DNA from: Lacticaseibacillus parakribbianus
GTDB lineage: Bacteria; Bacillota; Bacilli; Lactobacillales; Lactobacillaceae
NCBI RefSeq assembly: GCF_025490915.1
Contig: NZ_JANQBA010000016.1
Coordinates: 1-64,000 of the forward strand
DNA: 64,000 nucleotides
Reading direction: 5' to 3'
The position numbers and the translations under genes are program-made. Shown here piece after piece: positions 3,843-59,102 of the stretch (positions are counted from its first letter, which is position 1; the number at the start of each line of letters is the position of its first letter). The notes below the pieces were generated by a model that was not told the DNA's origin, did no database searches, and worked only from the letters and a program-made list of their open reading frames with translations.

Positions 3843-4205
3843 ATTCTCTCTCCTTGTTAACCGTCAATATGATAACAGATTGTGGCCGCGGGGCCAAATG
3901 AACCAGGGCGGAAGGCCGCGCAGTTAGCGGGACGGGTAGCCTAGCGGCGGCGGTTGGGGCCGCACTTGCCCCAAGTGACGCCGCGTAGCTAGCCGCTCCC
4001 GCGTTGCCGACCGGAGCCCGACGAACCAGGGCGAAGGGCGGCGCAGTTAGCAGGGCTCATCACCTAGGTCGTATCTGAAAATCCGCACCGCTGCCTACCC
4101 AGTGACTAATCCACGAACTAGTGGTTTTCAAGGCTAAATCCGAACTGATTTTGCTTCCAGATACTGCCTGGCCGTGGCGCTTGATGCCGCACTTGCCCCA
4201 AGCAA
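3843..4205. other. Intergenic stretch between ftsH and hslO with repeat copies
   Basis: Holds one full and one truncated copy of the 122-bp hairpin repeat (3905-about 4060), then a segment with CTAGGTCGTATCT (4064-4076) that recurs at 58771, and low-information sequence up to the ftsH terminator. No coding sequence with a ribosome binding site was seen. Confidence 0.6.
3905..4060. repeat. 122-bp hairpin repeat, array A (one full plus one partial copy)
   Basis: The full unit runs from AGGGCGG at 3905 to GACGAACC at 4027 (123 bp) and has the family signature TTAGCGGGACGG...AGCTAGCCGCTCCCGCGTTGCC. The second unit starts at 4028 and degenerates after about 30 bases (TTAGCAGGGCTC). The hairpin arms of the full copy match those of arrays at 17.3 and 54.2 kb. 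Confidence 0.8.
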
Positions 4206-8645: not shown

Positions 8646-9167
8646 TCAGCTGCGACGACCGCCGCGGCCGCCGCGCTTGCCTTCGGTGTTGCGGCGAAGG
8701 CTGCTCAGGCGGTCCTCGCTTTCCTTGAGAAAGCCGGACATCATGCCGTCAAAATCGTCCTTCGGGGCCTGCGGCTTACCGAAGCCGCCGCGGCCGTTGT
8801 CGCGGTGGGGCTTTGGGCCGCGCCCGAAGTTCGAGCCGCCGTTGCCGTGTGGGGCGCCGCCTTGGTGCGGGGCGCTGCCGTGAGGGCCGCCGGTGTGGCC
8901 GCCGCGTGGGGCACCACTGTGGGCACCGGCCGGGGCATCGACCGCCTTGCGAATGGACAGCCCGATCTTGCCGTCCTTGATCGACATCACCTTGACCGTC
9001 ACGGTGTCACCCACCGTCAGGACGTCGTGAATGTCTTTGACATAGGCATCGGAGACCTCACTGATGTGAACCAGTCCCGTTTTGCCTTCTCCCAAGTCAA
9101 CAAAAGCGCCAAAATTCGTGATCCCAGTGACCTTGCCAGAAACTTTTGCGCCGACTTCAACTGCCAT
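8646..9167 (-). CDS. yabR: S1-domain RNA-binding protein YabR
   Basis: Single S1 RNA-binding domain at the N-terminus (residues 1-75: GAKVSGKVTGITNFGAFVDL, KTGLVHISEVSD, VKVMSIKDGKIGLSIRKA), then a Gly/His/Arg-rich unstructured tail with repeated GG, HGG and GRG elements to residue 173. Homologues bind the ribosome or mRNA; the exact role is not settled. The gene lies in the conserved divIC-yabR-tilS order. The tail is longer and more His-rich than in low-GC relatives. Confidence 0.88.
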   Translation of the reverse strand: MAVEVGAKVSGKVTGITNFGAFVDLGEGKTGLVHISEVSDAYVKDIHDVLTVGDTVTVKVMSIKDGKIGLSIRKAVDAPAGAHSGAPRGGHTGGPHGSAPHQGGAPHGNGGSNFGRGPKPHRDNGRGGFGKPQAPKDDFDGMMSGFLKESEDRLSSLRRNTEGKRGGRGGRRS

Positions 9168-17250: not shown

Positions 17251-17254
17251 TTCC

Positions 17255-17830
17255 AGGGCGACGGCCGGCGGGTTTAGCGGGACGGAGCCCGACGATCCAG
17301 GGCGACAACCGGCGGGTTTAGCGGGACGGCTAGCCTAGCCGTGGCGCTTGGGGCCCGGGCCTGGCCACGAGTGACGCGGCGTAGCTAGCCGCTCCCGCGT
17401 TGCCGGACGGAGCCAGACGATCCAGGGCGACGTCGCGCGAATTTAGCGGGACGGGTAGCGCTGGGCCGGTGCTTGAAGCGGTCCTTGCTTCGAGTGCCGG
17501 TCCGAGCTAGCCGCTCCCGCGTTGCCGGACGGAACCAGACGATCCAGGGCGACGACCGGCGAGTTTAGCGGGACGGCTAGCCTAGCCGTGGCGCTTGGGG
17601 CCCGGGCCTGGCACGAGTGACGCGGCGTAGCTAGCCGCTCCCGCGGTGCCGGACGGAGCCCGACGATTCAGGGCGACGACCGGCGGGATTAGCCGGACGG
17701 AACCAGACAATCCACGGCGACGACCGGCGGGTTTAGCGAACCACGTAGCGCCGGGCCGGTCTTAAGGCCTGGGTCTAGCCTCGAGTGTCGGCCCAAGCTA
17801 GGTGGGTTCGCGTTGCGCGACCTCAGCGAA
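17255..17830. repeat. 122-bp hairpin repeat, array B (four full, two mini units)
   Basis: Units start with AGGGCGA at 17255 (mini, 44 bp), 17299, 17424, 17546, 17670 (mini, 44 bp) and 17714, giving full periods of 122-125 bp. The two mini units lack exactly the hairpin: they jump from TTAGCSGGACGG straight to the tail GGAACCAGAC/GGAGCCCGAC, as if the two GGACGG copies that flank the hairpin had recombined. The last unit has different arms (AACCACGTAGCGCC with GGTGGGTTCGC) but still pairs. Array starts directly after TTCC following the ldh terminator. Confidence 0.88.
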
Positions 17831-19407: not shown

Positions 19408-19414
19408 AATGAAG

Positions 19415-19454
19415 CCTCCTAGTTTTTTTACGTGGGCGGAATTTCGAACCACGA
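19415..19454 (-). promoter_or_regulatory. Probable preQ1-I riboswitch controlling queT
   Basis: On the minus strand a 5-bp stem CGTGG/CCACG (19449-19453 with 19431-19435) closes a 13-base loop beginning TTC, and is followed by the A-rich tail TAAAAAAACTAGG that runs into the SD. GG-TTC after the stem, a C-rich 3' loop edge and AAAAAACTA are the conserved preQ1-I features. Loop TTCC can pair with GGAG of the SD as the pseudoknot, so ligand would shut off translation. Structure by eye; family by memory. Confidence 0.65.
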
Positions 19455-19575
19455 CGGTTAAGTTTTGCATGAAATCGCGGCGCTGTCCAGAGATTTTCTG
19501 CAAATTGGGGCCGATTGGTGTACGCTAGAGGTAACTGAAAAAATCGCTGCAGATAGCAGGAAAGCAGGTAGTTGA

Positions 19576-22098
19576 ATGACAGAAGCAATCGCGTACCGTC
19601 TCAAGCAAATCATGACGGCGGAGCACCTGAGCCTGACCCAGGCGGCCAAGCTGATCGGCATTTCGCCTTCGAGCATGCGCAAGGTGCTCAAGGACACACC
19701 GATGAGCCGGCCGATCATGTTCAAGATCAACCGCTTCATCGAGGCGCATCCGGTGGCCCCGGCCGAACACACCTTCACCATTTTCGATTCGGAAGCGGCG
19801 GAGAAAAACGCAACCCCGACCCAGCCAGGCGCCAAGCCGGCGGCCGCCGCCAAGCCAGACGCCCCGCAACCGGCGGCCAAGCAGACCTCGGCCCAGCCAG
19901 ACGCTTCCCAGGCCAAGCGTCAGGTCACGCAGCCAAAGCAGGCCAAGGCCGAGCGCAAGGACGCCACCCAGGCCAAGCAGGCCGCAAAGACCCAGAACCA
20001 GGCTGAAAACAAGGGCACCAAGGCCCAGGCCAAGCAGGCCGCCAAGACCCAGGCCAAGGCCGAAAACAAGGACACCAAGGCCCAGCCCAAGCAGGCCGCA
20101 AAGACCCAGGCCAAGGGCGACCAAACACCGGCCACCAAGGCCCAGTCCAAGCAGGCCGCTAAGACCCAAGCCAAGGGCGACCAAACACCGGCCACCAAGG
20201 CCCAGGCCAAGCAGAGCAAGGCCGAAAGCAAGACGGCCACCCAGCCGAAGCAGGCCAAAACCCAGGCCGCCAAGCCAAACGACCAGCCAAAGGCCGCCAA
20301 GACCCAGAGCAAGCAGGCAAAGGCCGGCCAGCCAATCCAGGCAAAACAGGCCCCGGCCACCGCGGCGGCGCCTAAGCAGCAGGCCCAGTCCGAGCAGCCA
20401 AAGGCCAACCGCAACGCCGCGCAACAGGCCCCCAAGAACCCGGTCGGTAGCCTGGAACCAGGCGCCCAGCAGGCCAACTTCGAGGCCACCCGCAAGGCCC
20501 AACTCGCCGACCAAACCCCGGCCAAAACGGCACCGGCCGCGGTCGAGCAAGCCACCGCTCAGCCGACGCCAGCCGCCGACACCAAGCGCAAGCCGGGCCG
20601 GCCGAAGTCAACCAAGACGGAAAAAGCCGGCGACCAGGCCAAGCGCCAGGGCAACAAACAAAACGAACAGGCCAAGCAACAGCAGCAGGCCGCAAAGCAA
20701 AACGACCAGCCTAAGCAACAACAGGCCGCAAAGCAAAACGACCAGCCCAAGCAGCAGCAGGCCGCAAAGCAAAACGAACAACCGAAGCAACAGCAGGCCG
20801 CAAAACAAAACGACCAGCCCAAGCAACAACAGGCCGCGAAGCAAAACGACCAGCCTAAGCAACAGCAGGCTGCTAAGCAGAACGACCAGGCTAAGCAACA
20901 GCAGACCGCAAAACAAAACGACCAGCCCAAGCAACAACAGGCCGCGAAGCAAAACGACCAGCCCAAGCAACAACAGGCCGCGAAGCAAAACGACCAGCCC
21001 AAGCAACAACAGGCCGCAAAGCAAAACGAGCAAAGCACCCAGCCGCAGCAGCAGGCCAAGCCGGCCACCAAGCCGCGGCCGAGCAGCACCACGCTGCAGG
21101 TGTTCATGGACGAATCCTTCGGTGGTGGCTCCGATTACCAGCGCAACATGTCCATTGGCGCCACGGTGATCGACCCCGCCGACGACCACGCGCTGGACAG
21201 CTTCACCAACACGCTTTACCCGTTCGGCTGGCAGCCGGGCGACGAGGTCAAGGCGCGGGGTAAGTCCAGCGCCCAGATTCAGGCGATGATGGCCCAGGCG
21301 TTGGATCCGGCCGTGAAGGTTTACACCGTTTACTCCCCGCTTTCGGACGCCGGCAACTTCAGTATGAGCTTCGGCGTGATGTACCCATACGTCGCCGCCT
21401 TGCTGCGGATCATCGACGCCCAGGCCGTTTTGCCGCAAAAAGTGCGGGTCACGCTCGACCAGCGCAGCGAAATCGCCACGGAGCAGCTGGGCCTCGCCGC
21501 CCGGATGCTTCACGCCTACCTGAAGTCGCAAACCGGCCGCGAGATTTCGTTCTTCTTCCGCACCGCGGATTCCAAGAACACGATTGGCGTTCAGTACAGC
21601 GATTTTGCCAGCCACGCCGCCATGTTCTTCACCGCGGCGCAGATGCAAACCGCTGGCATGGTGCGGCTTGCCGACATCGGCGCCGAGCTGGGCGACCAGC
21701 TCACGCTTTACGCGATGGTCGGGCTGCAAAAGTACCTGCTGGATGAGCGGCCGACCGCGGTGGTCCCGACTAGCGGCTTCAAGAGCCCGGTTTTGAACAT
21801 CGCGATGCGCCTGTTCAACCTCGCCTCCAAGGCCGCGACCATGACCCAAGTGCCGGAAGACGCCTTCGTTCAGGCGAAGCTCGTGATCAACCAGCTGCTG
21901 ACCATCACCCCGTCTTCGGTCAACGGTGCGATCAACAAGATGCCGTTCCAAAACTGGTACGACATGGCGGCTCGCGCAAGCTCGCTGCTTCACTACACCG
22001 ACGCGACCCTGCCGCAGTTCAGCATCGACCCCGACGCCTTGAAGGTGGCCGAGGACGCGCTGAACAACGTCGCCACCCTGCTGGCCGGTGGTCGCTAA
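19576..22098 (+). CDS. HTH + Lys/Gln/Ala repeat linker + DUF3800-like nuclease-fold protein
   Basis: 840 residues in three parts. (1) Residues 1-60: helix-turn-helix (LTQAAKLIGISPSSMRKVLK). (2) 80-500: low-complexity Lys/Gln/Ala linker, first with a 20-residue repeat (KAQ-KQAAKTQAKGDQTPAT, about four copies), then ten copies of a 12-residue, 36-bp repeat (AAKQNDQPKQQQ) at 20689-21048. (3) 505-840: a DUF3800-like domain with MDES (D512) and QYSDFASHA (D676), positions where this RNase-H-fold family keeps acidic residues. DUF3800 has no firm function; nucleic-acid cleavage is inferred from the fold. A weak AGGTAG lies before the ATG. Divergent from queT; monocistronic. Confidence 0.7.
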   Translation: MTEAIAYRLKQIMTAEHLSLTQAAKLIGISPSSMRKVLKDTPMSRPIMFKINRFIEAHPVAPAEHTFTIFDSEAAEKNATPTQPGAKPAAAAKPDAPQPAAKQTSAQPDASQAKRQVTQPKQAKAERKDATQAKQAAKTQNQAENKGTKAQAKQAAKTQAKAENKDTKAQPKQAAKTQAKGDQTPATKAQSKQAAKTQAKGDQTPATKAQAKQSKAESKTATQPKQAKTQAAKPNDQPKAAKTQSKQAKAGQPIQAKQAPATAAAPKQQAQSEQPKANRNAAQQAPKNPVGSLEPGAQQANFEATRKAQLADQTPAKTAPAAVEQATAQPTPAADTKRKPGRPKSTKTEKAGDQAKRQGNKQNEQAKQQQQAAKQNDQPKQQQAAKQNDQPKQQQAAKQNEQPKQQQAAKQNDQPKQQQAAKQNDQPKQQQAAKQNDQAKQQQTAKQNDQPKQQQAAKQNDQPKQQQAAKQNDQPKQQQAAKQNEQSTQPQQQAKPATKPRPSSTTLQVFMDESFGGGSDYQRNMSIGATVIDPADDHALDSFTNTLYPFGWQPGDEVKARGKSSAQIQAMMAQALDPAVKVYTVYSPLSDAGNFSMSFGVMYPYVAALLRIIDAQAVLPQKVRVTLDQRSEIATEQLGLAARMLHAYLKSQTGREISFFFRTADSKNTIGVQYSDFASHAAMFFTAAQMQTAGMVRLADIGAELGDQLTLYAMVGLQKYLLDERPTAVVPTSGFKSPVLNIAMRLFNLASKAATMTQVPEDAFVQAKLVINQLLTITPSSVNGAINKMPFQNWYDMAARASSLLHYTDATLPQFSIDPDALKVAEDALNNVATLLAGGR
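20689..21048 (+). repeat. 36-bp in-frame tandem repeat (about 10 copies)
   Basis: Codes AAKQNDQPKQQQ with mild variants (NEQP, NDQA, TAK, NEQS at the end). Synonymous differences between copies (CAA/CAG, GCC/GCT) show the copies are not all recent. Copy number is expected to vary between strains. Confidence 0.95.
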
Positions 22099-52799: not shown

Positions 52800-52830
52800 A
52801 GAAGCATCATTCAGAAAAGAGTTGAGCGAA

Positions 52831-54240
52831 TTGACCAAACGCATCAAAGGTTCCTGCACCACCATTCTCGTCGGCAAGAAGGCCAGCCTCGACGGGTCGA
52901 CCATCATCGCGCGTAACGAAGACGGCAACGCCCCACTGCACCCGCAGAAGTTCGTGCTGGTGACCCCGGACAAGCAGCCGCGCCACTACCAAAGCGTCCT
53001 GAGCACCTTCAACCTCGACCTGCCGGACAACCCGCTGGCTTACACAGCCACCCCGGAGGCCGTTGACGGTCACGGCTTGTGGGCCGCCGCCGGCATCAAC
53101 AGCGAGAACGTCGCGATGACCTCGACGGAAACCATCACCACCAACAGCCGGATCCTGGGCATCGACCCGCTGGTTGAAGAGGGCCTGGGCGAAGAGGACA
53201 TGCCGACCATCACGCTGCCTTACATCCACAGTGCTCGCGAAGGCGTTGAACGCCTCGGGACACTTTTGACCCAGTACGGCACCTACGAGACCAACGGCAT
53301 CTGCTTTGCCGACAAGGATGAGGTCTGGTACTTCGAAAGCATCGCCGGCCACCACTGGGCCGCCGTTCGCATCCCCGACGACGCCTACGTGGTTGCCCCG
53401 AACCGCTTCAACATCACGGACTTCGACTTCGATTCCGCAGACACCCTGTGCTCGGCCGACCTGAAGGCCTTGGTCGACGACAACCAGCTGAACCCGGATC
53501 CGGCAGGCTACAACCTCCGCCACATTTTCGGCTCGGCCTCCTTCAAGGACACCCGCTACAACAACCCCCGGGCCTGGTACGGCCAAAAGTACTTCAACCC
53601 CGAGTTCGACACCACCCCAATCGACCAGGACCTGCCGTTCATCTGCCGGACCGACCACAAGATCTCGATTGAAGACGTCAAGCTGGTGCTGTCCTCCCAC
53701 TACCAAAACACGCCTTACGACGTCTACGGCGGCCAGGGCACAGCCGAGGAGAAAAAGCGGTTCCGCCCGATCGGCATCAACCGCAACCAGGAGCTGCACA
53801 TCCTGCAGATCCGCAACAACGTGCCGGCCGCAATCGCCGGCATCCACTGGCTGGCGTTCGGGCCGAACACCTTCAACGCGGTGATTCCGTTTTACGCCAA
53901 CGTCAACGACACCCCGGCGACCTACCGCGACACCACGGCCGAGTTCGACCCGACCAAGATGTACTGGCTGTCCAACCTGATGGCGACCTTCGGCGACACC
54001 GACTTCACGCTGTTCGAGGACCAAGAGAACGTCTTCGAGGAGAACACCGTGGCCGCTTGCCGCTACCTGCAGCGCCAGACCGACGCGGCGGCCGCAACGC
54101 AGGCGGATCTGAAGGCCTACCTGACCGAGGCCAACGCCAAAATGGCCGACATCTCCTTCAAAAACAGCAACAAGCTGCTGGGCCAGATGGTCGAGCTCGC
54201 CGCCCCACGGATGGCCCTGCAGTTCACGCTGCACGACTAA
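52831..54240 (+). CDS. pepD: C69-family dipeptidase (PepD)
   Basis: About 469 residues of the Ntn-hydrolase dipeptidase family of lactic acid bacteria. The catalytic Cys is in [18 protein letters not shown] (about residue 8), close to the N-terminus as the family needs, and ARNED, TSTETI and [21 protein letters not shown] are typical. Both possible starts are TTG: 52831 lies 9 bases after AAAAGAG, 52822 touches that site, so 52831 was chosen. Cytosolic peptide use. The stop codon is followed at once by a hairpin-repeat array instead of a normal terminator. Confidence 0.92.
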
Positions 54241-54244
54241 ACCC

Positions 54245-54984
54245 AGGGCGGAGCAAGGCGCACTTAGCGGGACACATAACGTAGGGTCGGCGCTTGAAGC
54301 GTTCTTTGCTTCGAGTGCCGGCCCTAGTTATGTGCTCCCGCGTTGCCTTGCGTAGCCCAACGATCCAGGGCGGAGCAAGGCGGGTTTAGCGGGACGGCTA
54401 GCGTAGGGTTGGTGCTTGAGGCCTGTACTTGGCCTCGAGTGCCGGCCCTAGCTAGCCGCTCCCGCGTTGCCTGGCGGAACCCGACGATCCAGGGCGGAGC
54501 AAGGCGCACTTAGCGGGACACATAACGTAGGGTCGGCGCTTGAAGCGTTCTTTGCTTCGAGTGCCGGCCCTAGTTATGTGCTCCCGCGTTGCCTGGCGTA
54601 GCCCGACGAACTAGGGCGGAGAAGCGCGGGCTTAGCGGATCGAATAGCCTAGCGCTAGCGATGAGGCGGGTTTTGCCTCAACGCTAGTGCGTAGCTAGTC
54701 GCATCCGCGTTGCGCTTCGTAGCCCGACGATCCAGGGCGAAGCAATGCGGGGTTAGCGGGACGGCTAGCTTAGGGTTGGCGCTTGAGGCCTGCACTTGGC
54801 CTCGAGTGCCGGCCCTAGCTAGCCGTTCCCGCGTTGCCTGGCGTAGCCCGACGACCCAGGGCGGAGAAGCGCGGGTTTAGCGGGACGGCTAGCGTAGGGT
54901 TGGCGCTTGAGGCCTGCATTTGGCCTCGAGTGCCGGCCCTAGCTAGCCGTTCCCGCGTTGCCTGGCGTAGCCCGACGGCCCAGG
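54245..54984. repeat. 122-bp hairpin repeat, array C (six tandem units)
   Basis: Units start with AGGGCG at 54245, 54367, 54491, 54613, 54734 and 54858 and end near 54982 (periods 121-124). Each has a stem of about 34 bp. Arms alternate between subtypes: ACATAAC/GTTATGT (units 1 and 3), GGCTAGC/GCTAGCC (2, 5, 6) and TCGAATAGC/GCTAGTCGCA (4), so pairing is kept while sequence changes. T-G pairs in the stem fit RNA of the plus strand. Unit 1 follows the pepD stop directly. Confidence 0.92.
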
Positions 54985-55004
54985 CAAAACGCTTTTTTCG
55001 CCGT

Positions 55005-55166
55005 AAAACCGCGTCAGATTAGGATTCACTTTCAAAAGGTTGACGCCTACAATTCAACCCGGCATACTAGAAACACGAGATCAAGTCCGGAGGGCCCTAG
55101 GAGTAGGTGCTGGACTAGCAAAACCGTGATCGTCAACGCCATAGATGCGTTGATTGACGCGGTTTT
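55005..55166. repeat. 162-bp segment with 12-bp perfect terminal inverted repeats
   Basis: AAAACCGCGTCA (55005-55016) and TGACGCGGTTTT (55155-55166) are exact complements. The segment encloses a promoter and a hairpin transcript. No target duplication seen. Confidence 0.5.
55040..55068 (+). promoter_or_regulatory. Promoter of a short candidate RNA
   Basis: -35 TTGACG (55040-55045), 17 bases, -10 CATACT (55063-55068). Confidence 0.55.
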
Positions 55167-55172
55167 TGTTTG
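55075..55172 (+). ncRNA. Candidate structured small RNA
   Basis: About 95 nt from the promoter above to a terminator. Contains AGTCC (55085-55089) pairing with GGACT around a G-rich loop with GGAGG and TAGGAG, then the terminator. No usable reading frame follows the SD-like bases (GTG CTG GAC stop). Confidence 0.45.
55120..55171 (+). terminator. Terminator of the 55075 RNA
   Basis: AAAACCG...TCAAC / GTTGA...CGGTTTT stem with an internal loop, then TTTTTGTTTG. Confidence 0.7.
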
Positions 55173-55232
55173 CCCTCACCACGCCAAAACGCGCCTGCCA
55201 CCGGCAGACGCGTTCGCGCCTCACGCGCTTAG

Positions 55233-55557
55233 TCACGGCTTGCGGCCGCGCAGGAACCGCACGACGGTCAGCGCCAGGCCGGCGACTGCGACCACCGCGG
55301 CCACCACGTACGTCACCGGCGACCCCAGTGGATCGCGCAGCACCCGCAGCAGCGTCGCCGTTGAGACGACGACCAGCAGCAGGTCCAGAAGGATCGTCGG
55401 GCTACGCCGCGCAACGCGGATGCGAATAGCTACGCACTAGCGTTGAGGCAAGACCCGCCTCATCGCTAGCGCTAGGCTATTCGATCCGCTAAGTCCGCGC
55501 TTCTCCACCCTGGAGTGACCCGAGGCCGGGCCGGTTATTGGTAGAATTATTGCCCAT
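55233..55557 (-). pseudogene. Small membrane protein gene split by a hairpin repeat
   Basis: The 5' part (ATG 55557, AAGGAGG six bases upstream) codes MGNNSTNNRPGLGSL and then enters the repeat at 55511, where it soon stops. The 3' part resumes at 55390 with LLDLLLVVVSTATLLRV and ends GRKP at 55233. Joining the flanks without the 121 bp 55391-55511 gives one frame of about 66 residues with two membrane helices, in phase to the base. It was the last gene of the GntR-ABC operon and overlaps the end of the 49-residue gene upstream. Function unknown. Confidence 0.85.
55391..55511 (-). repeat. Inserted 121-bp hairpin repeat copy
   Basis: Single copy of the family, minus orientation, same subtype as unit 4 of array C (TCGAATAGC arms, here with the better partner GCTATTCGC). 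A GGA triplet is present at both ends (55391-55393 and 55512-55514), consistent with a 2-3 base target duplication. Confidence 0.9.
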
Positions 55558-55696
55558 GCGTTGCCTCCTTTTCCGGCCACCAGATGGTGACCAACAGTGC
55601 GACGGCCACCGCCACGCGCAGCGGCCAGCTGGCCGTCAGCGCAAGCGCCGCCCAAAGGGCCAGGGCCAGCAACGTGCCAATGATTTTTCTAGCCAT
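55547..55696 (-). CDS. 49-residue membrane protein at the end of the ABC operon
   Basis: MARKIIGTLLALALWAALAL then a second hydrophobic stretch (LRVAVAVALLVTIWW) and a short polar tail. Two-helix or hairpin membrane protein, no known family. AGGTG lies 4 bases before the ATG and overlaps the end of the permease gene; its own last codons contain the SD and start of the following (split) gene. Role probably linked to the transporter. Confidence 0.7.
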   Translation of the reverse strand: MARKIIGTLLALALWAALALTASWPLRVAVAVALLVTIWWPEKEATHGQ

Positions 55697-55699
55697 GTT

Positions 55700-56614
55700 T
55701 CACCTCTGGCTCATCGCCGGCAGCGCCAGGAACACCGCCACCACGATTAAGAACAACACCCGGGTCATGAACAGCATCGGGGCGAACAGCAGCACCCCGA
55801 CGGCCAGCACGATCAGCGCGATGCGCAGCGGCTGGCGGTGGCGGCCGCCAAGCAGCCGGGTCCAGACCGGACCGGTCACGTTCAGGTCGGTGCCGGCCAA
55901 AAGCACCACGTCGGCGAGCAAAAGCAGCACCAGCACAATGCCGGCCAGCCCGGGCAAAAGCCACGGCGTCGCCGCCGCCGGGTCGAGCTGGTGGTCAAAG
56001 CTCCCGCTGGCCAGGGCCCGGGTCAGTTGCGCCGCCGCACTGTCGCTCGGCGCGATGGTTTTGACCACCGGATCGAAGCCGAGGAAAAACACCGCGAGCA
56101 GCGCCAGCACCGCCACGCCGAACGCGTAGGGATTGACGTAGTAGTGCAGCGCGTTGATGAACACGCCGACCAAGGCGGCGCCCAGCAACAGCGCGAAGAT
56201 GAACAGGCTGTTGGCCAGCCACAGCGTCGCGGTCTCGGCCCCCGGGTAGCCCAGCTCGTGCAGGAAAGTCTCGGGCGTCCCGAGCAGCCGCGCGTAGCCC
56301 CACATGATGGCCGTCATCAAGGCGGCCAGCGTCGCCCAGGTCACCAGGAGGCTGGCGGTCACGCTGCGCCGCGCGACCCCCATCGAAGCGGCCAGGCGCA
56401 GCCACCGTGGGGTTTTGGCCACCGCGACGGCCAGGAAAATCACGACGCTCGGCACGATCAGCGGGGTGCCGACCGTGTCGGGTCCGTCGCTTGGCAGAAT
56501 CACGTAGAACAGCGCCCAAAACGCGGCGGTCAATCCCGCCAGCGCCGCCAGGAAAACACCGAAAATCGCCAGCGTCTCCTTGAATTCAAGTCTCAGCATT
56601 GCGCGTAATTTCAT
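55700..56614 (-). CDS. ABC transporter permease-like membrane protein (second)
   Basis: 304 residues, about seven or eight hydrophobic helices, ends with a helix pair (LRIALIVLAVGVLLFAPMLF). No strong family motif; assigned as a permease from its place after an ABC ATPase and a first membrane protein, as in YtrA-type operons. ATG 56614 overlaps the upstream stop (TGATG). Confidence 0.7.
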   Translation of the reverse strand: MKLRAMLRLEFKETLAIFGVFLAALAGLTAAFWALFYVILPSDGPDTVGTPLIVPSVVIFLAVAVAKTPRWLRLAASMGVARRSVTASLLVTWATLAALMTAIMWGYARLLGTPETFLHELGYPGAETATLWLANSLFIFALLLGAALVGVFINALHYYVNPYAFGVAVLALLAVFFLGFDPVVKTIAPSDSAAAQLTRALASGSFDHQLDPAAATPWLLPGLAGIVLVLLLLADVVLLAGTDLNVTGPVWTRLLGGRHRQPLRIALIVLAVGVLLFAPMLFMTRVLFLIVVAVFLALPAMSQR

Positions 56615-57327
56615 CACTTCGCCCCCGTTTCCACCTGGGCCACGCCGCGCCAGGCCAGCCAGCCGACCAGCGCGTCAAGCGCCAGCAGCCACGCGGCGGC
56701 CAGCCACGGCCGCGGCGCCACACCGGCGGCCGGCAGCCCGATGGCCAGCCTTGGACCGGTCAACACCGCCGCGTGAATCGTCGTGTCGCCCAGAATCATC
56801 GCCGTGCCGATCAACAGCCCGGCGACGGTGAAGGCCACCACGCTGATCCAGGTGGTCACCCGCTTGCCGCGGCCGCGCATCGCCAGGCCACCGATCACGC
56901 CGAGCAACGCGAACAGCGCCATGGCTAATCCGACCAAAACCGGCGCCCAAACCGGGCCACCGAAGACCCCTTTCACGTACGGCGTCACCAGGCTGACCGG
57001 ATTGGCGCCGATCAGCCGCACCACCGCCTGCATCACCAGCAGCGCGGCGGCCCCCAAGACAACCAGCGGCAGCAATAGCGCTGCACCGACCCGGCGCATG
57101 GTGCGGCGGGTCACGCCGTTTTGGAAGGCCTGGTCGACGCCGACGTCGATCAGCATCATGCCGCCGAACGCCACGTCGATGGCAATCAAGAGGTCGCCGA
57201 GGCTGAAGTCGTGCTGGTCCAAGAGCAACGGCAGCCCCACGATCACGATCGCCGTGGTCACGACCATCACCACCATGCTGACCAGCACCGTGTTGGCCAG
57301 GCTGCGAAAGAGCGCCTTACTTTTCAT
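56614..57327 (-). CDS. ABC transporter permease-like membrane protein (first)
   Basis: 237 residues with six hydrophobic helices. TRRTMRRVGAALLLPLVVLGA in the middle resembles ABC-2-type permease coupling segments (NGVTRRT is common in these small exporters). ATG 57327 overlaps the ATPase stop by 11 bases; a GTG three codons up is possible. Couples with the ATPase and second membrane protein. Confidence 0.72.
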   Translation of the reverse strand: MKSKALFRSLANTVLVSMVVMVVTTAIVIVGLPLLLDQHDFSLGDLLIAIDVAFGGMMLIDVGVDQAFQNGVTRRTMRRVGAALLLPLVVLGAAALLVMQAVVRLIGANPVSLVTPYVKGVFGGPVWAPVLVGLAMALFALLGVIGGLAMRGRGKRVTTWISVVAFTVAGLLIGTAMILGDTTIHAAVLTGPRLAIGLPAAGVAPRPWLAAAWLLALDALVGWLAWRGVAQVETGAK

Positions 57328-58183
57328 GCCGCTCACCCCGCGTCAGCTCGATGATCAGGCGTTGCAGGTCCATGGCGTCGAGCGTCACGCCGGCCGGCAG
57401 CGGCCGCTCCAACGGCGCGTCCAGCGTATAGGCCGTCAGCATTCCGCCCAGTGCCTGCTTGCGCATCACCGGCGTGTCTCTCAGGTAGTCCGCGACCAGG
57501 CCGGCGGGACCGGACACGATGCGCCCCTTGGCCAGCACGGTCGCGACGTCTTCGGCCAGCACGATCTCGCCGCCGGCCAGCACGTTGACGTTTTCCACCA
57601 GCGTCGCGACCTCCTCGATCAGGTGCGTCGCGATGACGAAGGTTCGCGGCCGCTGCGCGTAGGTCGCGAGCAGCTCCTGGTAAAAAAGCTCCCGGGCCGG
57701 CGCGTCGAGCCCGAGTACCGGCTCGTCCAGCAGCACGAAGTCACACGGGACACACAGCGCGATGATCAGCCGGGCGATGGTCTGATAGCCCGTCGACAGC
57801 TGGCCGAGCTTGGCCGAATCGCGCAGCTCAAAGGCGGCGAGCAGGTGCTTGGCCAGTTCGTCATCGAAGTCCCCGTACATCTGGCGGGTCAGCGCAAAAA
57901 GCCAGGTCAGCTTGCGGTCGGCCGGGTACAGCTGGGCGGCAGACATCAGGAAGATGCGGTTTTGCGCCGCTTCGTTTTCGACCACCGACTTGCCGTCCAG
58001 GGTCACGGCGCCGCCGGTCGCAAAGGTGCGGTTGTTGACGATGCGCAGCAGGGTGCTCTTGCCGGCGCCGTTGCGGCCCAGCAGCGCGTAGATTTTACCC
58101 GCCTCCCAGGTCGCGTTGACGCCGCGCAGCACCTGCTGGTTCCCGTAGCGCTTGGTCACGTTCTTGAATTTGATCTCACTCAT
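57317..58183 (-). CDS. ABC transporter ATP-binding protein (YtrB-like)
   Basis: 288 residues: Walker A GRNGAGKS (about 37-44), signature LSTGYQ (variant of LSGGQ), Walker B FVLLDEP, D-loop GLDAPAR and H-switch ATHLIEE. The variant signature is shared with YtrB-like ATPases next to GntR regulators. Starts inside the last codons of the GntR gene. With two membrane proteins it should form an exporter or envelope-stress ABC complex. Confidence 0.88.
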   Translation of the reverse strand: MSEIKFKNVTKRYGNQQVLRGVNATWEAGKIYALLGRNGAGKSTLLRIVNNRTFATGGAVTLDGKSVVENEAAQNRIFLMSAAQLYPADRKLTWLFALTRQMYGDFDDELAKHLLAAFELRDSAKLGQLSTGYQTIARLIIALCVPCDFVLLDEPVLGLDAPARELFYQELLATYAQRPRTFVIATHLIEEVATLVENVNVLAGGEIVLAEDVATVLAKGRIVSGPAGLVADYLRDTPVMRKQALGGMLTAYTLDAPLERPLPAGVTLDAMDLQRLIIELTRGERHEK

Positions 58184-58547
58184 GGTTGTACTCCCCTTCG
58201 ATGGCGGCGGTCAGCTGCCCCGCCGTGATGCCCAGCGCCTTGGCCTGCCGCACCACCCGCGGCACCTGCGCCGCGAAAAACTCGGCCTGCTGCGCTGCGG
58301 CCAACTTGGCCTGGGCCCCTTGAACGACGAACATCCCGACGCCGCGCCTTTTTTCGATCACGCCGGCGTCGACCAGCTCGTTCATCCCCCGCAGCACCGT
58401 CGCCGGGTTGATCGCGTAGCTTCGCGCCACCTCAGTCGTCGACGGAATCTGGCTTTCTTCCGGGAACGCGCCGGACAAAATGCCGGCGGTGAACTGCTGC
58501 GCAATCTGGTGGTACAGCGGCACCACGGAACTCGCATCAAAATGCAC
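58176..58547 (-). CDS. GntR-family regulator (YtrA subfamily)
   Basis: 123 residues: winged HTH (PLYHQIAQQFTAGILSG, IPSTTEVARSYAINPATVLR) and a short helical tail as in YtrA, which represses ABC operons induced by cell-wall antibiotics. GTG start at 58547, GGAGG 7 bases upstream. First gene of the five- or six-gene operon. Confidence 0.88.
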   Translation of the reverse strand: MHFDASSVVPLYHQIAQQFTAGILSGAFPEESQIPSTTEVARSYAINPATVLRGMNELVDAGVIEKRRGVGMFVVQGAQAKLAAAQQAEFFAAQVPRVVRQAKALGITAGQLTAAIEGEYNHE

Positions 58548-58682: not shown

Positions 58683-59047
58683 GTGAGGGCCGTTGTGGTT
58701 GAAGGCAGCGCAGCGCGGCGAATCCGCCGCGGCACTCGGATCAGGCCCGGGTCCACGCACCACGCCGCCGCTAGGTCGTATCTTAAAATAACACCAATCT
58801 GTATTTAGCCTCGAATACCACGTGTTGCTCAATTAGCCGCTAGGTAGGGCGGAGGATCGGACGGCACCGTTGCCACGGCGGAGGGCCGGGGCGAGCCAGC
58901 GTGAAATTGCAGTTAGCCGGCCACCCTTGCCGGCTTACTGCAAGGGCGGGTCCTGAGACCGCAACGGGCTCAGGGGAGCCCCACGCGTTCCGCCGCCCCG
59001 GCCCGGAGCCGTGGCGCTGGTTCGCCCGGGCCGGAGCCCGGATTTTA
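58683..59047. other. Non-coding repeat-rich stretch downstream of GH127
   Basis: Holds CTAGGTCGTATCT (58771-58783, also at 4064), a partial hairpin-repeat remnant (about 58845-58905) and family-2 repeat copy 2 (58943-59003). Looks like a landing area for several repeats; no gene seen. Confidence 0.6.
58943..59003 (+). repeat. 60-bp dispersed repeat, family 2, copy 2
   Basis: See copy 1 at 51731-51790 (opposite strand). Here GGGCTC-AGGG-GAGCCC forms a perfect small hairpin. Confidence 0.65.
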
Positions 59048-59102
59048 CCCGTCCCGCTAAACCCGCGGCGCTACGCCCTGGTTCGTCGGGCTACGCCCTG
59101 GA
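59048..59102 (-). repeat. Hairpin repeat, mini copy at the GH127 3' end
   Basis: On the minus strand AGGGCGTAGCCCGACGAACC then AGGGCGTAGCGCCGCGGGTTTAGCGGGACGGG: family sequence without the hairpin. The junction CTCC/AGGG is the same as in the split gene at 55.5 kb. Supplies the last residues and stop of the GH127 gene. Confidence 0.75.

Follow-up and report, generated by a model that had tools for sequence, protein, structure and literature searches.

A hairpin repeat of about 120 nucleotides, probably mobile, interrupts the apparent last gene of an ABC-transporter operon in Lacticaseibacillus parakribbianus

Several families of small folded repeats provide a frame for the element considered here, and the portions of the literature cited below describe them as follows. 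In the Bacillus cereus group, bcr1 is a small repeat confined to one taxon, present in tens of copies per genome and endowed with features of mobility, for which a mechanism has only been proposed; its insertion is associated with repeats of the short motif TTTAT (PMC6542083), and it has been classed as a stem-loop family (PMC2267715). The GTAG REPs and REPINs are palindromic, reside predominantly downstream of genes and are thought to be moved in trans by RAYT, and the same account describes CGTC REPs, with stems of 8–9 bp and loops of 4–5, as having no known dedicated transposase (PMC3733652). The pneumococcal RUP, BOX and SPRITE repeats are short, folded, MITE-like and found in few species: RUP and BOX display terminal inverted repeats and target duplications, and SPRITE is enriched near the 3' ends of genes and is A+T-rich with its own U-rich tract (PMC3049150).

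The window analysed here, a stretch of 64,000 nt, comes from an assembly of 2.82 Mb and 32 contigs and contains a hairpin element of 121 nt lying inside a small gene (Table 1). The element is 95% complementary to positions 54613–54733, within an array of six such units. With the element in place the frame of the small gene ends after 22 codons; excising exactly these 121 nt opens it to 67 codons followed by a stop. The original prediction held that a hairpin had inserted as a unit and split a gene, that its removal restores the frame, and that relatives ought to show an empty site and an intact homologue of the 66-residue protein. Both are found in Lacticaseibacillus kribbianus, the closest named relative in a search with the locus (97% identity in the neighbouring peptidase). 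There, at 8862–9062 (minus strand) of locus L009, an intact 66-aa homologue without the element shows 86% identity over 66 residues, and the DNA alignment breaks at the element: it stops at 55390 and restarts at 55514, corresponding to L009 9016 and 9019.

Table 1. Positions in the window of the interrupted gene, its operon and the hairpin units.
Feature	Position	Strand	Basis
5' part of interrupted small hydrophobic-protein gene	55512..55557	-	aligned to L009 8862-9062
3' part of interrupted small hydrophobic-protein gene	55233..55390	-	aligned to L009 8862-9062
Inserted hairpin element, AGGG...GATCC; family-profile limits (CCAG...GACGA) 55394-55513	55391..55511	-	complementarity to 54613-54733; frame restored; profile match
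Apparent operon: GntR-type regulator, ABC ATPase, two large hydrophobic proteins, 49-aa protein; last gene interrupted	55547..58547	-	ORFs; Pfam; continuous alignment to L009
Six-unit head-to-tail array, few nt past stop codon of C69 peptidase gene	54243..54978	+	
Fourth unit of six-unit array; closest sampled copy of inserted element	54611..54730	+	
Further unit, then start of a partial unit	3903..4024	+	
Further array after T-run; includes shortened 43-44 nt units	17253..17819	+	
Remnant: collapsed 19-nt unit and truncated unit	59045..59101	-	

The joined frame is very likely a real gene, because most of the nucleotide differences from its L. kribbianus counterpart are at third codon positions (20 of 31, with 7 at first and 4 at second positions); 16 of the differing codons are synonymous and 9 are not. 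Its product appears by eye to be hydrophobic with two-helix character, and a Pfam search of the 66-aa protein at E 0.01 gave no match. As a homologue occurs in only 2 of 30 genomes of the genus, namely this one (its own pieces) and L. kribbianus, the direction of change is read from one sister species and from the codon pattern. The reverse course, in which the element was ancestral at this site and was precisely excised in L. kribbianus, draws on that same scarcity, the gene being present in only one other genome of the 29 in the genus search. It is the least probable of the explanations weighed here: the occupied frame is cut short, and the empty form displays the codon pattern of a maintained gene.

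The interrupted gene is apparently the last of an ABC-transporter operon. Pfam matches above cut-off were obtained for GntR and ABC_tran, the 49-aa protein gave only a sub-cut-off match to FUSC_2, and neither of the two large hydrophobic proteins was matched in Pfam. Between the peptidase gene and the operon L. kribbianus accommodates approximately 1.04 kb of extra DNA (L009 7740–8780) with a gene for an Abi_2 protein (PF07751), and this segment appears by eye to be flanked by similar terminator-like sequences.

The locus is most probably to be understood as the product of a non-autonomous mobile hairpin of about 120 nt, which inserted as one unit into the last gene of the operon and broke it. 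The donor would most likely have been a unit like the fourth of the six-unit array, 657 nt away, inserted in opposite orientation. This very proximity counts against the reading, as it is also explicable by local template switching: a nearby inverted unit would have been copied into the gene during replication without any transposase, through TCC micro-homology on both sides. TCC is present at both junctions of the element, and other similar inverted copies lie a few kb apart at L102 and L158. Template switching is nonetheless unlikely. What precedes the fourth unit of the array is ACT rather than TCC; the same 5' end is found at many loci; near-identical units reside on different contigs (97.5% identity for L160/L167, the best such pair, and 96.7% for L123/L142); and the unit at the L. 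kribbianus locus L148 is at most 92% identical to any unit elsewhere in a partial sample.

Insertion as a unit is not confined to the window. At L. kribbianus L148, compared with L176 of this genome, about 130 extra nt lie between two genes, with flanks 95% and 94% identical, a clean reciprocal insertion that, together with the L. kribbianus empty site for the window element, agrees with the predicted insertion as a unit. The genes on either side presumably belong to an amino-acid ABC transporter operon, which they resemble. When 22 sites of this genome were compared with L. kribbianus, 16 were occupied there, 5 were not and 1 was not comparable; in the reverse direction 16 L. kribbianus sites were queried, and 5 that are apparently empty in this genome were aligned. 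Movement is thus not frequent, since most arrays are common to the sister species. The window site and L148/L176 are the only clean sites at which the element is absent in one species; the others lie in divergent DNA, and the junctions at L107, L109 (minus), L097:688, L102 (plus and minus), L137, L139, L144 and L152 are too divergent to read.

Both local multiplication and long-range spread seem to occur, because the closest sampled relative of the 171 units with a companion in their own array resides in that array for 77 and elsewhere for 94. Identity exceeds 92% for 24 pairs of units from different arrays, some of them close neighbours. The place of the six-unit array, downstream of a gene (52822–54240) that matches Peptidase_C69, is taken in L. 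kribbianus by one unit. Slippage or unequal crossing-over would amplify units on the spot into head-to-tail arrays.

A covariance model built from 42 units of this genome, aligned over lengths of 119–124 nt, matched 25 of 30 Lacticaseibacillus genomes (all but G009, G011, G019, G022 and G025) and none of 30 drawn from other genera of its family and order; among the genomes searched the hairpin is found only in Lacticaseibacillus. The search ran with the stricter filters and a ceiling of 59 scored candidates per genome, the 59 for this genome being a lower bound. Rfam 15 at its cut-off returned nothing for the repeats in the whole window, and at low threshold every hit in 54200–55600 remained under its own cut-off. 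A literature search found no description of the family in Lacticaseibacillus, a weak negative given that subscription papers fall mostly outside its coverage. As neither that search nor Rfam at cut-off gave a match, the hairpin is filed as an apparently undescribed family of mobile hairpins, the unusual part of which is apparently its head-to-tail arrays at gene ends.

The units fold into a long hairpin with interruptions. Across the alignment 94.1% of cells are paired and 23 of the 33 pairs vary on both sides, values that none of 500 shuffles attained; sliding the partners by 1–3 columns lowers pairing to 31–48%, a comparison weighted towards the structure over its slid versions, as it was derived from the very sequences tested. 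Among non-Watson–Crick cells in 218 units of three species, the second unit kind included, G.T (742) far exceeds A.C (73), so that the fold seems to be kept on one strand, compatible with RNA or with one strand of single-stranded DNA. Shuffled columns gave means of 1122 and 513, respectively, under a control that retains column make-up and not relatedness. This second unit kind shares the core and has other ends, AGAGGG...CCCGTTT (L088, L089, L091, L098, L101 and others).

Such one-strand conservation with G.U wobble would fit retro-insertion of a transcribed hairpin by a reverse transcriptase, a route that the original prediction had also entertained. The folded strand is that of the upstream frame in 16 of 23 arrays of this genome (by a crude longest-frame calling that miscalled the peptidase array), the arrays sit at gene 3' ends, and one of their ends is precise and the other ragged. 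Genomes with the reverse transcriptase domain RVT_1 (PF00078), 11 of the 30 in the genus, also have more matches to the element, with a median of 41 against 16 in the 19 without, although these numbers are capped near 59 and the species are related. Against this stand the lack of any RVT_1 match in this genome, L. kribbianus and L. daqingensis, and the poor transcription that would be expected of arrays behind terminators; retro-insertion is accordingly highly improbable.

Mobilization by RAYT, a Y1 transposase present or since lost, would make the hairpin a REP- or REPIN-like element. The location of the repeats downstream of genes suits this possibility, and the 13 genomes of the 30 with Y1_Tnp (PF01797) show a median of 41 matches, compared with 9 for the 17 lacking it, the numbers again being capped near 59 and the species related. 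Y1_Tnp was however unmatched in this genome, L. kribbianus, L. daqingensis, G007, G013 and G024, all rich in units, and neighbouring matches less than 150 nt apart are head to tail in 154 of 155 pairs, an arrangement that is rare in REPs according to the part of PMC3733652 cited. The RAYT explanation is very unlikely. A mover of either type since lost from this genome, L. kribbianus and L. daqingensis is conceivable, because genomes in which a Y1 transposase or reverse transcriptase is present tend towards higher unit numbers. Integrase-core (rve) transposases were considered as movers and set aside: 9 of the 10 genomes inspected have them, whether or not they contain units, and their presence is uninformative. 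A blastn search of plasmid and phage collections with the six-unit array gave no match, records very near this genome possibly having been left out.

The favoured mobile hairpin can also be set against the described families. It resembles bcr1, compared by description only, in being a small repeat limited to one taxon with tens of copies per genome, and departs from it in that the flank is not a fixed motif such as TTTAT and in its head-to-tail arrays at gene ends. With the GTAG REPs and REPINs it shares palindromy and a location mostly downstream of genes; in contrast, three unit-rich genomes have no Y1 transposase match, the unit measures about 120 nt against their 20–40, the neighbours are head to tail rather than the opposed pairs of REPINs, and the ends are CCAG..GACGA or AGAGGG..CCCGTTT instead of an unpaired GTAG at one end. 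Read in reverse, type A units open like CGTC REPs with TCGTC and then a stem, but stem and loop differ and the tag is missing from the second unit kind. The hairpin thus lacks tested features of the GTAG REPs, REPINs and CGTC REPs. RUP, BOX and SPRITE are likewise short folded repeats of few species; unlike RUP and BOX, the hairpin has no long terminal repeats, and unlike SPRITE, its aligned units carry no T-run at the end. By analogy, it is best read as working like the small non-autonomous repeats bcr1, RUP and REPIN.

The placement of the arrays follows a sharp rule. Profile matches from this genome, L. kribbianus and L. daqingensis, 265 with the partial ones counted, form 115 arrays, and 81 flanks of the main kind are left once identical flanks and 4 flanks that are unit ends are removed. 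A stop codon or a T-run directly precedes 63 of these 81 arrays, and 18 have neither. Flanks no more than 9 nt past the stop codon of a same-strand frame of at least 60 codons number 32 of 81, compared with 124 of 3000 random places, and 32 of 81 follow a T-run of at least 4 within 9 nt, compared with 1.7% of random places (3–8 nt); the random places come from all fetched sequence, mostly coding, and sites common to several species are not independent. The two letters preceding AG are C in 76 and 78 of the 81 flanks. Arrays of the second kind lie in mixed places (n=13): 5 of the 13 adjoin a reverse-complement motif resembling a ribosome-binding site, that is, they lie upstream of an opposite-strand gene, and a sixth flagged for such a motif proved to be a T-run. 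A strand preference by GC skew of the flanks was rejected, there being no common sign across species: 38 of 96 are positive on the element strand and, for type A, the count is 20 of 60 in this genome together with L. kribbianus, against 14 of 23 in L. daqingensis.

The closing letters of the flank reappear between units one and two, at positions −1 to −5 only. The match within an array, against that to other arrays' flanks, is 0.68/0.35 at −3, 0.59/0.43 at −4, 0.43/0.25 at −5 and 0.22/0.24 at −6. At least four letters are shared in 32 of 69 arrays, with 10.8 expected and 0 of 10000 permutations as high; the 69 remain from 98 flanks after 18 were dropped and 11 of the second kind set apart, and one of those kept (L149) resembles a unit end. 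A short target duplication would produce this pattern, and a tandem duplication of flank and unit would look identical. The short target duplication originally suggested for the window therefore holds in part: the flank repeat of the 69 arrays speaks for it, and the window site itself has only the three nucleotides TCC common to both sides. There, CC may belong to the element, because both the L. kribbianus empty site and the second empty site lack CC at that position. Of the general traits of a MITE, the hairpin is short, non-coding, present in many copies and associated with empty sites; as candidate terminal inverted repeats it has an outer helix of 3 predicted pairs, and as regards a fixed-length target duplication there is the −1 to −5 repeat in type A, no repeated flank in the 11 type B arrays and no full duplication at either clean site.

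Arrays are clean at the near end and ragged at the far one. Among the 114 arrays not at a locus edge, 99 open with a complete end, 4 of them preceded by another unit's end; 88 close with a complete end, and 53 of these are followed within 22 nt by the opening of one more unit, which is too short or too degenerate for a profile match (2% expected). The first unit outscores the last in no more than 43 of 76 multi-unit arrays; the two ends thus differ by truncation and not by general decay, and arrays may grow at the near end. Collapsed units at 17253–17295 and 17668–17711 (43–44 nt) and at 59083–59101 (19 nt) have kept both ends and lost the hairpin, matching expectation for deletion between hairpin arms. 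Many L. daqingensis arrays (L155–L173) finish in a common extra module that begins AGACCGGAAAGAAGTAAGC or similar and that was not noticed in the other two species.

As for mechanism, an enzyme encoded elsewhere would recognise the folded strand and join it behind a short target. A bolder version, possible though doubtful, is a new class of mobile hairpin in which the folded sense strand would be recognised, the target would be the gene 3' end (stop codon or terminator T-run), arrays would gain units gene-proximally and lose them distally, and the enzyme would belong neither to the Y1 transposases nor to the reverse transcriptases. How small repeats lacking a transposase of their own spread is a long-standing question; a high-copy mobile hairpin that ranges across the genus, covaries strongly, has a clean empty site and follows a sharp placement rule makes it testable in lactic acid bacteria. 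The arrays modify where numerous genes end on the 3' side, can inactivate a gene, as happened here, and might find use as strain markers.

Elsewhere in the window, the only Rfam match at cut-off is a PreQ1 riboswitch at 19413–19458 on the minus strand (RF00522, 42.4 bits). Tandem repeats of 57–60 nt and of 36 nt at 19939–20214 and 20572–21104 probably encode low-complexity protein regions.
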